64,000 bases of DNA. Origin: Nitrospirota bacterium. Its GTDB lineage: Bacteria; Nitrospinota_A; UBA7883; JACRGQ01. The DNA is taken from NCBI GenBank assembly GCA_024275955.1, contig JAJRYD010000003.1:1-64000 (forward strand), given 5' to 3'. Below, piece after piece: positions 3,050 to 54,917 of the stretch; the first letter of the stretch is position 1; each line of letters opens with the position of its first letter. The position numbers and the translations under genes were made by a program. The notes beneath the pieces were generated by a model. That model did not search any database. It was not told the origin of the DNA and was given only the letters and a program-made list of their open reading frames with translations.

Positions 3050-3175
3050 GTCTGTTGCCAAATCCTATAAATTTGATTTTGTTTAAAATTGCCAACCTCT
3101 AAAACATCTATTTTGAAAAAGTTAAAAGATGAGTTTTTTCTTGAAGTGTTCCAAGAACTATTTCGGCAACAGCCC
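3050..3175 (+). mobile_element. Element A, copy 1 (degenerate MITE)
   Basis: The left end reads GTCTGTTGCCAAATCC and the right end CGGCAACAGCCC, forming the family's terminal inverted repeat. The interior follows the same order as other copies (AAATTTGATTTT, then TTGCCAA, then a stem-loop). It belongs with the copy at 51799 to a subtype with TTTAAAATTGCCAA. No clean target duplication remains. Confidence 0.7.
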
Positions 3176-14268: not shown

Positions 14269-14314
14269 ACATAATATCGCTTTTCCGGCCTATTTAGAAG
14301 AACAAAGGCTTTTA

Positions 14315-14335
14315 GGTAGTGTATCAGTTTGAATT
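14315..14335 (+). repeat. Single end resembling the 9.5 kb inverted-repeat element
   Basis: GGTAGTGTATCAGTTTGAAT matches the left end at 9529 with few changes, and the following bases (CAAAGATTTCCCC) are of the same type. No partner end is found nearby. Element A pieces begin 28 bases downstream, as at 9.5 kb. Confidence 0.35.
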
Positions 14336-14363
14336 GCCAAAGATTTCCCCTCCTTGCCATAGC

Positions 14364-14419
14364 GGGGCTGTTGCCGAATGGCACAAATTCGATTTTGCTA
14401 CAAATCGACAATCTCTAAA
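14364..14419 (+). mobile_element. Element A, 56-base left-end fragment
   Basis: It begins GGGGCTGTTGCCGAATGG and matches the first 56 bases of the element, ending at ATCTCTAAA where a full copy starts directly. There is no right end. It looks like the product of recombination or slippage between two tandem copies. Confidence 0.75.
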
Positions 14420-14549
14420 GGGGCTGTTGCCGAATGAGATAAATTTGATTTTTCCACAAATCGCCAATCTCTAAAACCTCTCTTTTAAAGAAGTTAGAAA
14501 ATAAATTTCCCTTTTCAATGCTCAAAAAAACTCTTTTGGGAACAGTCCC
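14420..14549 (+). mobile_element. Element A, copy 4
   Basis: A full copy from GGGGCTGTTGCCGAATGAG to GGGAACAGTCCC. It closely resembles the copy at 14993 (both have TTTCCCTTTTCAATGCTC), so the two may be a recent local pair. No target duplication is visible, in keeping with the tandem arrangement. Confidence 0.8.
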
Positions 14550-14591
14550 TTTATCTATTTTAACCAAAAGCTAAAAAAAAGGAGCTGGCGT

Positions 14592-14984
14592 TTAGCTCCC
14601 TGTAGTAAAGCTCCATGCTATGCGGGAAAGGCTGTTGCCTGCCCTATCGGTGATAGTATCGCTAAGCGTTGCGGTATAAGTTGTGTTCGCCGTTAGGTTA
14701 GAGTCGATGGTGAATACCGCTTTCTTTTCGTCGGAGCTATACGAAACGGTTCCGGTCACGCCGTTATTTAGGCTAAACGAAGCGGCGGAAACTGTGGCGG
14801 CATCGAGCTGTTCCGAAAAGGTGGCGGTAATATCGAGACTAAGCGCCGTACCTGTTGCCAGATTTTCCGGAAATGTAGAAACAACGCTAGGGCTTTTAGT
14901 GTCGGAGCTTACGGTCAAGGTAAAGTTTCCGCATGAAACGGCAGTTAAAACAGAGAAAACCCCGAACAAAACAAGTTTACGCAT
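14592..14984 (-). CDS. Small lipoprotein with one Big_5 (Ig-like) domain
   Basis: A 130-residue protein. The leader MRKLVLFGVFSVLTAVSCGN ends in a Cys consistent with lipid anchoring (Cys 18). The rest is one Big_5/SbsA-like Ig domain: SPSVVSTFPENLATGTALSL, FSEQLDAATVSAASFSL, TYTATLSDTITDRAGNSLS and the closing WSFTTG. A related lipoprotein lies at 26997. The frame stays open further upstream, but that part is element A sequence inserted 8 bases before the ATG, so I place the start at 14984. No ribosome site is visible between element and ATG. Confidence 0.75.
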   Translation of the reverse strand: MRKLVLFGVFSVLTAVSCGNFTLTVSSDTKSPSVVSTFPENLATGTALSLDITATFSEQLDAATVSAASFSLNNGVTGTVSYSSDEKKAVFTIDSNLTANTTYTATLSDTITDRAGNSLSRIAWSFTTGS

Positions 14985-14992
14985 CACAAAAT

Positions 14993-15121
14993 GGGGCTGT
15001 TGCCGAATGGGATAAATTCGATTTTTCCGCAAATCGCCAATCTCTAAAACCTCTCTTTTAAAGAAGTTAGAAAATAAATTTCCCTTTTCAATGCTCAAAA
15101 AACTCTTTTGGAAACAGTCCC
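14993..15121 (+). mobile_element. Element A, copy 5, next to a start codon
   Basis: 129 bases from GGGGCTGTTGCCGAATGGG to GGAAACAGTCCC, flanked on both sides by AAAAT (14988-14992 and 15122-15126). Its left end lies 8 bases before the start of the minus-strand lipoprotein, so the promoter and leader of that gene must lie in or beyond the element. Confidence 0.88.
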
Positions 15122-15173
15122 AAAATATACTTTCGTTTTATTTTTTTTAAAGAGGTAAAATTTTATCGTCTCT

Positions 15174-17054
15174 TTACAGTTGTTCTTTTGGCAGATAAAG
15201 TTTTATCGTTTCTCTTCCGCTTTTTCCGGTTACAGCTATCGAAGCCGAGCCGCTCTTTTTAAACTTTTTCATATTTGAACCGCTAAAGATTTTTTTTATT
15301 CTTCTTTTACCGTGCCATATCTTCGAGTCGTTTTTCCCTTTATGAAAAACGATAAGATGGGCGCTAAGCAGATTAGGCAGTTTACCTACATCGACACCGG
15401 CTCTGGCAAGCTCGGCCCTAAACGCCGGGTACACAACACGAGGAGCTGTAGAAAGCCGTGAAAGAACTACAACGGTTCCTTTTTTAAGCTTTCCTATTTC
15501 TCCGCTCAGCTTTTTACTGCCTGCCATGTTTTGGTTTTCATCAGGATAAAATCGTCCGTTCACCTCGTCGTTTTCCGCGAAAAGCGCCAGATAGCCTTCC
15601 TCTGTATGCGCATTTTTAGAAAAATTCTTGCGCCATACAATACGGCTCTCCGCCTCTATATGGCTTTCCAGATATACGTTTTCGTAAATAACCTGATGCA
15701 GTTTTGGCGACGACTCGGCTATGAGGGTTTCACCCTCGTCAACCTTCCATTTTTGAAAATCGGCTGGATGAAAAAATCCGACTCCACCTTCTTTTAAAAG
15801 AGCGCCTATTTCATAATATGTAAACTGCGGAAGCTCCGCTAGAAGCTCCGGCTCGAGCAGTTGCGAGAGTTTTATCTTTTTTCTTTTTTTAAGTTTTTCT
15901 ATGCTTTTGTCAAACTGTTTCGTCTGCTCGAAGATGTTTTTATAAACATCATACGCCTCCCTATACATTTCGGCATTTACAAGCCCCCTTGCCAGCAGAA
16001 TGGCGGTTTTCTTTTTTAGCTTTTTACACTGTTTGCAGTTTAAGCTCAAAAACTGCTTCGGCAAGCCGGCCTTGCTCTTTACGATGGAGGATATTTCCAG
16101 CAGGCGGACGTAGTACTTCACCGCTTTTTGCAGATCGCCAGCTTTTATAGATGCAGAAACAACTCCAGAGAGAGCCTCCTTACTGCCGGGGTTGATACCA
16201 TGCGCGCCGATGTAGCTCTTACTCGCCGCTTTATAATCGCCTGCCACTTCGTACCAGTGGGCGGTTTTCATGTAAGAGGTGTACCAGCCGGTGTATGTCC
16301 GCCTGCCGAGAAGCGCTCTATCTATATGCTTTAGAGACAAACCATTATCGTCAATTTTCTTTTCGCGGATTTTGAGCGCCGCGTTGTAAGGGTCTATCAC
16401 CAACGCTCTTTCTATAAGCTGATGTTTGATTGATTCGTCTTCGAACTGTTCTACCTTTTCAAGGTACGACTCGGCTAGTTCTTTAAGGTTTACGCTGTAT
16501 CGAAACTCTGGAATGTAGCTTCTAGCTTCTGCTCTTTGCTCCGCGCCGGAGAGATGCACAAGGTATCTAATATCCCACTCCAAAGCCCATACCCCGTCAA
16601 CTTTTCTCCAAAACTCTTCCTGTATGGAGCTTATCGTTACCTGAGGCATCGGAGGCGGAAGAGGCTGTACAACTTCGGATGAGACTTCTGCGAAGTTTCT
16701 GCCGGCGTTAAGCTTTATGTTTATTATCTTGTAGGCAAGATGAGTCGGCACATACCGTTTATTTAACAGTTCCTCCATAGCTCCGCCTCTTGTAGTCTCT
16801 GGAAGAAGAACGCCGTTGGGAAGATGCGGCTGAAGGATAAACTGCTTTAATGAAATTATTGATTTCAGCCTCGGTGAGAGGAAAGAGTATATTTTTTCCC
16901 AATCGTTGGCTATCTTAGCTTCAAAAAAATCTCTCTGCCTTTCAACAAGCTTTAAAACTTCCCTTCTCTCCTTTTTGGTGAGCTCCACAGCTAAGACCAG
17001 AGGAGAGGCTAAGTGGAAAAACAGCAGAAATAAAACAACGCTCTTTTTTATCAT
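15174..17054 (-). CDS. Secreted TPR-containing protein, function unknown
   Basis: A 626-residue protein with a signal peptide (VVLFLLFFHLASPLVLA). Residues about 25-165 form an alpha-beta domain that resembles NTF2-like folds (RQRDFFEAKIANDWEKIYSFL, later EEFWRKVDGVWALEWDIRYL). TPR-like helices follow at about 185-400 (for example WYEVAGDYKAASKSYIGAHG). The C-terminal 200 residues are beta-rich and end in SASIAVTGKSGRETIKLYL. It overlaps the stop of the upstream glycosyltransferase by four bases (ATGA), and a TPR lipoprotein gene precedes that, so the three form one transcription unit. I do not recognise the family. Confidence 0.75.
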   Translation of the reverse strand: MIKKSVVLFLLFFHLASPLVLAVELTKKERREVLKLVERQRDFFEAKIANDWEKIYSFLSPRLKSIISLKQFILQPHLPNGVLLPETTRGGAMEELLNKRYVPTHLAYKIINIKLNAGRNFAEVSSEVVQPLPPPMPQVTISSIQEEFWRKVDGVWALEWDIRYLVHLSGAEQRAEARSYIPEFRYSVNLKELAESYLEKVEQFEDESIKHQLIERALVIDPYNAALKIREKKIDDNGLSLKHIDRALLGRRTYTGWYTSYMKTAHWYEVAGDYKAASKSYIGAHGINPGSKEALSGVVSASIKAGDLQKAVKYYVRLLEISSIVKSKAGLPKQFLSLNCKQCKKLKKKTAILLARGLVNAEMYREAYDVYKNIFEQTKQFDKSIEKLKKRKKIKLSQLLEPELLAELPQFTYYEIGALLKEGGVGFFHPADFQKWKVDEGETLIAESSPKLHQVIYENVYLESHIEAESRIVWRKNFSKNAHTEEGYLALFAENDEVNGRFYPDENQNMAGSKKLSGEIGKLKKGTVVVLSRLSTAPRVVYPAFRAELARAGVDVGKLPNLLSAHLIVFHKGKNDSKIWHGKRRIKKIFSGSNMKKFKKSGSASIAVTGKSGRETIKLYLPKEQL

Positions 17055-26996: not shown

Positions 26997-27449
26997 ATGG
27001 CACGGTTTTCTTCAGTAGCTTTGGTTCTGGTATTTTTAATAACCGCTTGCGGCGGCGGTGGGGGAGACAGCACCGGCAGTGATAGCGGCGGGGTAACCGA
27101 CGCTTCCAGTACGGTAAAAATAACAAGCACAAACCCTGAGGATGGCGCGACCGCCGTAGCGCTTACCGTATCCGGTAGCCGCACGCATGTTTATGTCTGG
27201 TTTGACGACCTTATCGACACGACTACTCTGACATCTAGTACAGGGTTTACTTTGGACGGCGGGTCAGGCTCTATCGCCGGAGCAGTTACCACTACAACTG
27301 TATCTGGTTCCAAGACCGAGATGCTTTATATACCGACCAGCACGCTTTCAACCTCGACACTGCATACAGCGACAGTAGCCAGCACAGTTAAAGATACCGG
27401 CGGAGCATCGAGAACTGCCGCCTATTCTTGGACATTTACAACCGAATAA
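26997..27449 (+). CDS. Lipoprotein with one Big_5 (Ig-like) domain
   Basis: A 150-residue protein. The leader ends LVFLITACGGGGG, a lipobox with a Gly-rich tether after the Cys. The Ig-like domain reads STNPEDGATAVALTVSGSRT, YVWFDDLIDTTTLTSSTGFT, and closes with AYSWTFTTE, as in the lipoprotein at 14.6 kb. Thr and Ser content is high. It probably sits on a membrane surface, monocistronic, followed by a terminator. Confidence 0.8.
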   Translation: MARFSSVALVLVFLITACGGGGGDSTGSDSGGVTDASSTVKITSTNPEDGATAVALTVSGSRTHVYVWFDDLIDTTTLTSSTGFTLDGGSGSIAGAVTTTTVSGSKTEMLYIPTSTLSTSTLHTATVASTVKDTGGASRTAAYSWTFTTE

Positions 27450-51798: not shown

Positions 51799-51927
51799 GG
51801 GGCTGTTGCCAAATCCGATAAATTTGATTTTGTTTAAAATTGCCAATCTCTAAAACATCTATTTTGAAGAAGTTAAAAGATGAGTCTTTCCTTCAAATAC
51901 TTCAAAACCTGTTTCGGCAACAGGCCG
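51799..51927 (+). mobile_element. Element A, copy 8 (subtype with longer terminal repeats)
   Basis: 129 bases from GGGGCTGTTGCCAAATCC to GTTTCGGCAACAGGCCG, with ATGAG on both sides (51794-51798 and 51928-51932). Its right end repeats the left end best of all copies. The interior matches copy 1 at 3050. It lies between the hemerythrin stop and the start of the hypothetical gene, in a 415-base gap otherwise empty. Confidence 0.88.
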
Positions 51928-52644: not shown

Positions 52645-52774
52645 GGGACTGTTTTCAAAAGAGTGTTTTTAAGCGTTTTAAAGAGAATTTCATTTTCTAA
52701 CTTCGCAAGAACAGAGGCTTTAGAGATTGGCAATTTTAAACAAAATCAAATTTATACCATTCAGCAACAGCCCC
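52645..52774 (-). mobile_element. Element A, copy 9 (reversed), next to a start codon
   Basis: On the plus strand it runs GGGACTGTTTTCAAAAGAG to CATTCAGCAACAGCCCC, that is the reverse of the other copies. AGCAT flanks it on both sides (52640-52644 and 52775-52779). It ends 16 bases before the ATG of the CHASE2-adenylate cyclase, with no ribosome site in between. Confidence 0.88.
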
Positions 52775-52790
52775 AGCATGTAAAACTGCT

Positions 52791-54917
52791 ATGGAAAACA
52801 TCGGAATAGGGAAAACATTCGGAAAAAGCAAACCGTTGCTTGGCACCATTATCATCGGGCTTGTGCTTACCGCCTCTTTTTTCTTTTACGAAACCGGCGC
52901 GACAGCCCGCCTAAGGCTGATACTGCTTGATGCCGCCGCGAAACAGGTAAGACTTGATAAAAAAACAGCAGATAATATCGCTATTGTACTTATAGACGAA
53001 ACCTCTCTACAGGCTCTAAACCCGATACTTGGAAGATGGCCCTGGCCTCGGGCCGCCTACTCCGACCTGATGGAATTCTTCAAAATGGCGCCCCCGAAAA
53101 TGGTACTCTACGATATCCTTTTCACCGAAACACAAGACCCCCGAACCGATGGACTGCTCGGTGCCAACGATAACGCGCTTGTTTTGACCACCTTGGAGTC
53201 CGGTTTTGGTTATCACGCTATTCAGATTCTGGAGGATACCGAAGATGAATATAACAAAACCGACCTGAACCGCCCTTTGCCGGACGATTTCATAAAAAAG
53301 TTTGCGGTACCTCTCGAAGGTTCCTCCAACTGGCTAGACTCTACAAACAACAAATACTACCTGCCGTTTAAGGAGCTTTACAACGCTTCCGCCGGTATAG
53401 GGGTGGTAGAGTTTTCGCCGGATATAGACGGCGTGTTCCGCCACACTATACCGCTTAGAAGCTATCTCGGCTCCGCTTTTCCTGTACTTGGGCTTTCTCC
53501 TTTCATTAACGGCCAAAAAGTCTCTATAAAGAAAAAGGCAGTAACGATAGGAGATAGGGAAATACCTCTGGACGATGAGGGAAAGCTTCTTATAAATGTT
53601 TACGGAAAATTCAATACCTATTCAATCAGCGGCATATTCGCTTCTTACCAAAAAATTATGAAAGGGGAATTTGAAGATCTTATAGTCGACCCTTTGGAAT
53701 TTGAAGATAAAATTGTCTATATCGGCTCCAGCGCTGTCGGCGTTGAAGATTTAAAGGCAACCTCTATGTCGCCGAACACTCCGGGAGTATTTCTGCATGC
53801 CGCTCTTTCGAGCAACTTTATTTTGGACGATTTTCTTACACCGCCGAACAAGAGTATTACCAGAATGCTTATCGTTATCTTCGCGTTAATCTGCGTTCCC
53901 CTCCTTCTTTATCTGCCGGGATACCGCAACAAATATGGGTTCCTAATCGTGCTTTCTTTTGGTTTTTTTCTATTTTGCTATCAAAACTTTACGCAAGGCA
54001 AGGTTTACGATTTTATATCTCCTTTTTCAGCAATCTTTTTTTCCAGCCTGTTTAGTTTTGGCTACCTTCTTGTGACAGAAGGAGTGGAAAGAAGGCGGGT
54101 TAAAAAGATGTTTTCACAATATGTCTCGCCGGAGGTTCTTGACGCGGTAGCGGAGAACTACGAGAAATACGGCTCTCTGCTTTCGGGAGGCGAAGAAGAT
54201 ATTACGATACTTTTTACCGACATCAGAAGTTTTACATCTTTCTCTGACAGCCACTCCGCGGACACCGTGGTAAAGATGCTCAATATCTATTTCTCGCGGA
54301 TGTCGGAAATTATTTTTAAAGGGAAAGGAACCATAGATAAATTTATAGGCGACGCGATAATGGCGTTCTGGGGGGCGCCTATAAAAATGGAAAATCACCC
54401 CGATATGGCGGTCAAAACCGCTATTAATATGATAAAAGAGCTGGAGAAAATCAATGAGGAGATACAGAGCAAAGGGATAAACCACACCATCAAGATAGGA
54501 TTCGGCATAAACAGCGGCTCGGCGATAGTCGGCAATATCGGCTCTGAAAGAAGGCTTAGCTACACTGTTATAGGTGACGCGGTAAACCTGGCGGCACGGC
54601 TGGAAAGCATAACGAAGAACTGGGGGGCCGAGATAATCATCTCGGAATTTACGAGAGAAAAACTCGACCCGAAAATCCCGTGTAGAGTGATCGATAGGGT
54701 AGAAGTAAGAGGCAAAAAAGATAAAATTAAAATTTTTCAGGTATTTGTAGAGGACGATGACGAATCGAGCAGGCTGGTTAAAATAACCAACGAGGCGTAT
54801 CAATTATTTGAAAATGGAGACTTTCAAAAAGCACTTGGCCTTTATGAATCAATAGATGATGGAATAATCAAAGAAGTTTTCGTCGAGAAATGCAGAAAAA
54901 AACTAAATCTGTTATAG
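52791..54917 (+). CDS. CHASE2-domain class III adenylate cyclase
   Basis: A 708-residue sensor enzyme. After a first membrane helix (20-37) comes a large periplasmic CHASE2 domain (about 40-350: IAIVLIDETSLQAL, GRWPWPRAAYSDLM, VYIGSSAVGVEDLKATSMSP). Three membrane helices follow at about 357-435. The cyclase domain has the two metal Asp (ILFTDIRSFTSF and GDAIMAFWGAP) and the adenine-selecting Lys/Asp (TIDKFIGD and TVIGDAVNLAARLE). So it makes cAMP in response to an unknown periplasmic signal. It starts an operon with the SH3, M48 and outer-membrane genes (9, -1 and -14 base junctions). An element A copy lies just before its start. Confidence 0.93.
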   Translation: MENIGIGKTFGKSKPLLGTIIIGLVLTASFFFYETGATARLRLILLDAAAKQVRLDKKTADNIAIVLIDETSLQALNPILGRWPWPRAAYSDLMEFFKMAPPKMVLYDILFTETQDPRTDGLLGANDNALVLTTLESGFGYHAIQILEDTEDEYNKTDLNRPLPDDFIKKFAVPLEGSSNWLDSTNNKYYLPFKELYNASAGIGVVEFSPDIDGVFRHTIPLRSYLGSAFPVLGLSPFINGQKVSIKKKAVTIGDREIPLDDEGKLLINVYGKFNTYSISGIFASYQKIMKGEFEDLIVDPLEFEDKIVYIGSSAVGVEDLKATSMSPNTPGVFLHAALSSNFILDDFLTPPNKSITRMLIVIFALICVPLLLYLPGYRNKYGFLIVLSFGFFLFCYQNFTQGKVYDFISPFSAIFFSSLFSFGYLLVTEGVERRRVKKMFSQYVSPEVLDAVAENYEKYGSLLSGGEEDITILFTDIRSFTSFSDSHSADTVVKMLNIYFSRMSEIIFKGKGTIDKFIGDAIMAFWGAPIKMENHPDMAVKTAINMIKELEKINEEIQSKGINHTIKIGFGINSGSAIVGNIGSERRLSYTVIGDAVNLAARLESITKNWGAEIIISEFTREKLDPKIPCRVIDRVEVRGKKDKIKIFQVFVEDDDESSRLVKITNEAYQLFENGDFQKALGLYESIDDGIIKEVFVEKCRKKLNLL

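Follow-up and report, generated by a model that had tools for sequence, protein, structure and literature searches.

A MITE-like element inserted eight bases upstream of a putative lipoprotein start codon, with read-through from the upstream gene as the favored outcome

Introduction

A short repeated element lies immediately 5' of the start codon of a gene for a putative lipoprotein in the window, the stretch of 64,000 nucleotides analyzed here, and the question raised by this arrangement is what the insertion does to the gene. Insertions that alter the expression of a neighboring gene are already known for Correia, ERIC and MITEAba12 elements, according to the cited sections of the published accounts (PMC6382973, PMC10969869, PMC2229807). 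A preliminary description of the locus recognized a transposition, a duplicated target and the displacement of the native DNA past position -8, and this part of its interpretation stands. It also offered silencing of the gene, a promoter inside the element or an N-terminal extension as the sole outcomes, and that part does not. Read-through transcription from the gene upstream, a fourth outcome absent from that description, is favored here from the arrangement of the sequence as likelier than those three.

The insertion and its surroundings

The copy at issue is 129 bp long as read from the sequence, and the features around it are collected in the table. Eight bases, five from the duplication and the trinucleotide GTG, separate it from the minus-strand ATG (14984-14982). 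The preliminary description had placed the element eight bases 5' of the start codon, with AAAAT at both of its ends and the ATG separated from its original upstream DNA, and each of these observations is confirmed in the sequence; the span that it gave, 14982-15126, comprises the start codon, the element and both duplications. The flanking AAAAT repeats support a true transposition with a duplicated target.

Table. Features of the insertion site and its neighborhood (positions in the window)
Feature	Position	Strand	Description
Partial copy, first 56 bases	14364..14419	+	directly abuts the copy at 14420..14549
Second full-length copy	14420..14549	+	96% identity and shared orientation with the copy at 14993..15121; 3' of the lipoprotein gene; ends lack a duplication
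Terminator-like hairpin and T run	14579..14601	-	overlaps the lipoprotein stop codon; from a scan, weak
Big_5 single-domain gene, putative lipoprotein	14592..14984	-	130 aa, native ATG at 14984; Pfam
Target-site duplication AAAAT, gene-proximal	14988..14992	.	read from the sequence
MITE-like copy	14993..15121	+	left end GGGGCTGTTGCC nearest the lipoprotein gene; complement of GGGACTGTTTCC at the right end
Farthest-upstream listed in-frame start, TTG, inside the element	15096..15098	-	from the ORF list; would add 38 residues
Target-site duplication AAAAT, distal	15122..15126	.	read from the sequence
Weak promoter-like site TTTAAA-16-TATATT	15124..15151	-	in native upstream sequence, now separated from the ATG by the insertion; from a scan
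Co-directional upstream gene	15174..17054	-	626 aa; in Pfam only TPR_7, below cut-off

Three other full-length copies, each flanked by its own duplication, share 98.4, 97.7 and 97.7% identity with the copy at 14993-15121, whereas the median identity of the family is 84% over 82 full-length copies; the copy at 14993-15121 is therefore taken as young. No empty site for this insertion was found in any genome searched, and no orthologue of the lipoprotein that might mark such a site was seen in 59 other genomes. Matches to the lipoprotein at E <= 1e-5 came from nine of the 59, at 31-49% identity, and the matching open frames span 278 to 1890 aa, compared with 181 for the query frame.

Downstream of the gene, the joint between the partial copy at 14364-14419 and the adjoining full-length copy lacks a duplication, which suggests deletion or recombination after insertion. 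The full-length copies at 14420-14549 and 14993-15121 bracket the lipoprotein gene in the same orientation, and recombination between them could delete the gene together with one copy. That the two copies and the gene form a composite mobile unit is hardly credible. The 96% identity and shared orientation of the copies would be consistent with such a unit, but the right copy has an AAAAT duplication of its own, and the outer flanks are mismatched, with CTAAA or ATAGC to the left of the pair and AAAAT to its right, so that no joint transposition is recorded.

The element family

A search with a profile of length 129 gave 105 matches in 312 kb of the own genome, and 82 of these are full length. 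These 312 kb are the window and fetched stretches that were mostly picked for holding copies, and copies with decayed ends are under-represented in them. The stretches were picked from the matches of a similarity search of the own genome with the copy at 14993-15121 (at least 41 matches, with 40 of 166 candidates scored) and from the first 100 of 187 places of the pattern GGGRCTGTTNCC, which has 92 + 95 matches in the 2.45-Mb genome as against 0 + 3 for the reversed pattern. The 23 partial matches among the 105 were left out of the counts of duplications and gene context.

Exact 5-bp duplications occur at 52 of the 82 full-length copies, where 1.42 would be expected from left and right flanks paired at random. 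The duplicated targets are AT-rich, with T at position 2 in 37 and A at position 4 in 39 of the 52. The consensus of the 82 copies is 129 bp long and has terminal inverted repeats of 12 bp, GGGGCTGTTGCC / GGGACTGTTTCC, which match at 10 of 12 positions as counted by eye; likeness between the two ends of the consensus fades by eye after about 12-15 bases. A transposase gene cannot fit in 129 bp, and the longest frame has 42 codons. With inverted ends, a duplication of fixed length, a short length, many copies and no transposase gene inside, the family is MITE-like and non-autonomous. Two divergent copies, at 51799-51926 and 3052-3175, are 76% and 73% identical to the copy at 14993-15121; both ends of each are left-end-like, and they are perhaps a subfamily.

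When gene context is defined by ORFs of 80 aa or more, rather than by annotated genes, one of the 82 copies lies inside an ORF, 41 lie between tandem, 23 between convergent and 14 between divergent genes, and three are at contig edges. The insertion upstream of the lipoprotein gene is of an ordinary kind. Between tandem genes the strand of the element is unbiased (22 of 41, p 0.76), a result that speaks against any directional signal built into it.

In 96 other genomes, with at most nine candidates per genome scored, the element was not found but for two short matches (36 and 23 query bases, E 2e-5 and 8e-4) that are taken as chance. Exact-pattern scans of genome_contigs and viral_contigs, from which records near the own genome may be left out, found no element. 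By these searches, this MITE-like family, with its high copy number and 5-bp target duplications, is found in the own genome only.

No source transposase with the ends of the family was found in the own genome, an assembly of 56 contigs that may lack it, by searches with PF01609, PF13610, PF00665, NF033572, PF13586 and PF01526, and an autonomous parent in this genome is unproven rather than absent. PF01609 has four matches. Three belong to an IS5-type transposase, for which NCBIfam transpos_IS5_1 is the best match, with a score under its whole-protein cut-off because the frames are fragmentary, and the fourth is on contig C56. The IS5-type element was rejected as the parent given its ends, TAGTCG... 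rather than GGGGCTGTT, as was the match on C56, whose 3.25-kb locus has no GGGGCTGTT end. There are three matches to PF00665 (rve), the comparison of ends covering the PF01609 loci only, and none in the own genome to PF13610, NF033572, PF13586 or PF01526. The IS5-type transposase pieces with TAGTCG ends (loci L069, L070 and L071, on contigs C9, C27 and C33) include two at the start of a contig, and in the L069 copy part of the transposase gene is repeated within the copy.

The lipoprotein gene and its upstream neighbor

The lipoprotein gene is intact, and its product contains a complete Big_5 domain in Pfam (E=1.1e-24, 87.6 bits with a cut-off of 23.6, profile positions 1-105 of 105). A putative lipoprotein signal, MRKLVLFGVFSVLTAVSC, starts by eye at the ATG at 14984, and its AVSC box, identified by eye from the consensus, presumably contains the lipid-modified cysteine. 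A second ORF that by eye resembles a small lipoprotein of the same style, with an ITAC box, is at 26997-27449.

The upstream gene has matches in seven of ten other genomes of the bacterial family. Its stop codon is 47 bp from the duplication; the native spacer to the lipoprotein ATG is 55 bp, as compared with 189 nt when the element is present. A terminator scan of 14300-15400 gave three sites against 1.6 expected and is therefore weak. It gave no terminator-like site on the minus strand between the upstream gene and the lipoprotein gene, and none within 14993-15121, so that a terminator role for the element is not supported.

The region of the start codon was also compared in the occupied and the empty site. 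Neither has a Shine-Dalgarno core, which is present at 13 of 38 listed starts; over 148 gene starts the Shine-Dalgarno signal peaks at -13 to -8. The predicted cost to open positions -12..+13 is 8.5 kcal/mol with the element versus 5.7 without it, and 100 shuffled inserts gave a median cost of 7.5 (10-90%: 5.5-10.0), so the rise is not specific to the element. The predicted fold of the element RNA is only slightly more stable than that of shuffles, with z of -1.3 for the strand of the gene, -2.0 for the opposite strand and -1.0 in context.

Effect of the insertion on expression

In the favored account, the non-autonomous MITE-like element inserted in the spacer and duplicated AAAAT, and transcription of the lipoprotein gene would continue by read-through from the upstream gene. 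Translation from the native ATG would then yield an unchanged protein, with initiation perhaps moderately weakened by structure and because any coupling with the upstream gene is lost. Read-through is the likelier outcome because the two genes share a strand, were natively separated by a short gap and have no terminator-like site between them; operon membership was judged by spacing, strand and the simple terminator scan. Also counted for this account are the scarcity of copies in ORFs (1 of 82), the unbiased strand between tandem genes, the predicted rise in opening cost and a further copy, at 52645-52774, that has a 5-bp duplication and whose distance to the ATG of an intact 708-aa ORF at 52791 is 16 bp. 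Weighing against it are the lack of specificity of that rise, the promoter-like site in the native DNA, and the searches that gave neither an empty site nor a transposase with these ends. The account as a whole, namely a recent MITE-like transposition into a short spacer between two co-directional genes, read-through transcription and translation from the native ATG, is held with moderate confidence. The consequence for the lipoprotein gene itself is probably modest, and the young insertion is a case in which the effect on a neighboring gene can be measured.

Silencing of the gene, either by separation from its own promoter or by a hairpin that hides the start, is unlikely. The co-directional upstream gene, at a native distance of 55 bp and with no terminator-like site between, argues against it, as do the intact ORF with its complete Big_5 domain and the similar cost of opening shuffled inserts, and silencing as envisaged in the preliminary description is not upheld on the first of these grounds. 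On its side are the displacement of all native sequence past -8, the drop in the predicted unpaired probability of the ATG from 0.45 to 0.05 with the element, and the weak promoter-like site just outside the element, but that site is at chance level, since 36 of 300 shuffled versions of the native stretch do as well. Were the site real, the gene would have possessed a promoter of its own and the insertion would have greater consequences. In the empty site its TATATT ends five bases 5' of the ATG, and the insertion might then have split a near-leaderless gene between the -10 box TATATT and the ATG, such that an element-derived leader of about 130 nt would now set expression. This reading is very improbable, given the chance level of the site and the frequency of TANNNT, which across 148 gene starts is 0.04-0.06 at positions -15 to -12 as compared with 0.026 in shuffles, but 0.01 at -11, the register of the lipoprotein gene, and so not enriched there. 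For MITEAba12 and Correia elements, internal promoters have been proposed or demonstrated in the cited parts of two accounts (PMC6382973, PMC10969869), and a promoter in the present copy that now drives the lipoprotein gene would have this precedent. It is nonetheless quite improbable here: the best site on the gene strand, TTGAAA-16-TAACTT, is equaled in 95 of 300 shuffled sequences, which is why the internal promoter of the preliminary description was set aside, a consensus promoter scan is blank on both strands of the element, and copies between tandem genes do not favor either strand (22 of 41).

Translation could instead start inside the element, adding up to 38 residues and burying the lipoprotein signal. 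The minus-strand ORF 14592-15098 (168 aa, from a TTG) does pass from the element into the lipoprotein frame, as the preliminary description had noted, and when start codons are ignored this frame is open across the whole element, five more codons and one that straddles the edge. On its own the open frame is weak evidence, since the shuffled element is open in the lipoprotein frame in 3.9% of cases and in any of the six frames in 25%. The frame is open in 14 of the 82 copies, which exceeds the count for each of the other five frames (2-7), and the consensus has one stop there. A functional open frame was rejected because most copies have a stop in that frame; the open frame is incidental, not a property of the family. 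Fusions of MITEs to genes are known from the cited sections of three accounts (PMC6382973, PMC10969869, PMC2229807) and, together with the TTG at 15098, would favor an extension, as would the finding that, among the 55 copies with a gene starting away from them, 14 contain the beginning of that neighbor's longest ORF. That last count, however, indicates that the longest-ORF rule by itself readily creates such extensions. In addition, the standard-looking signal peptide at the native ATG, judged by eye, makes a start 38 codons upstream unlikely. The N-terminal extension of the preliminary description is therefore not retained, and is given little more credence than the composite unit considered above.

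Comparison with known elements

Tn3-type elements have a 5-bp duplication, a GGGG end and terminal inverted repeats of about 38 bp. By these features, the present family resembles TIMEs in its 5-bp duplication and GGGG end, but membership was rejected because the family has no inverted repeat of about 38 bp, its ends diverging after about 12-15 bases, and because the genome has no match to a Tn3 transposase. TIMEs are miniature elements derived from Tn3, as described in the cited part of the source (PMC4133298).

MITEAba12 of Acinetobacter, in the sections cited, is 111-114 bp long with 9-bp duplications and a co-resident parent IS, ISAba12, and some of its copies fuse to the 5' end of neighboring genes (PMC6382973). 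The present family is likewise non-autonomous and short with AT-rich targets, and its ends share a TGTTGC core with the MITEAba12-related IS ends GGCTTTGTTGC; it differs in its 5-bp duplications, its otherwise distinct ends, the lack of a parent among the matches found and a promoter signal that does not rise above shuffles (PMC6382973). Correia/NEMIS elements of Neisseria are characterized, in the excerpts cited, by 24-bp terminal inverted repeats, TA termini, known promoters and an IHF site in the 155-bp form (PMC10969869, PMC2229807). They too occur as many short copies, often immediately upstream of genes, whereas the present family has other ends, a 5-bp duplication and, again, no promoter signal above shuffles (PMC10969869, PMC2229807).

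ERIC and RUP elements are similar in having terminal inverted repeats and a target duplication, and ERIC, at 127 bp, also in size. Their TA termini and repeats of 7 and 9 bp, as given in the cited part of the source, contrast with the 12-bp repeats (10 of 12 matching) and the 5-bp duplication found here (PMC2229807). Membership in Correia, ERIC or RUP was rejected, as the present family has a 5-bp duplication without the fixed terminal TA that the same excerpt ascribes to those elements (PMC2229807). Across MITEAba12, Correia, ERIC and RUP, the effects described in the cited sections include promoters, RNA structure and 5' fusions (PMC6382973, PMC10969869, PMC2229807). ERIC is also co-transcribed with its neighbors in Yersinia, according to the portion cited (PMC2229807), and this would be the setting of the copy upstream of the lipoprotein gene.
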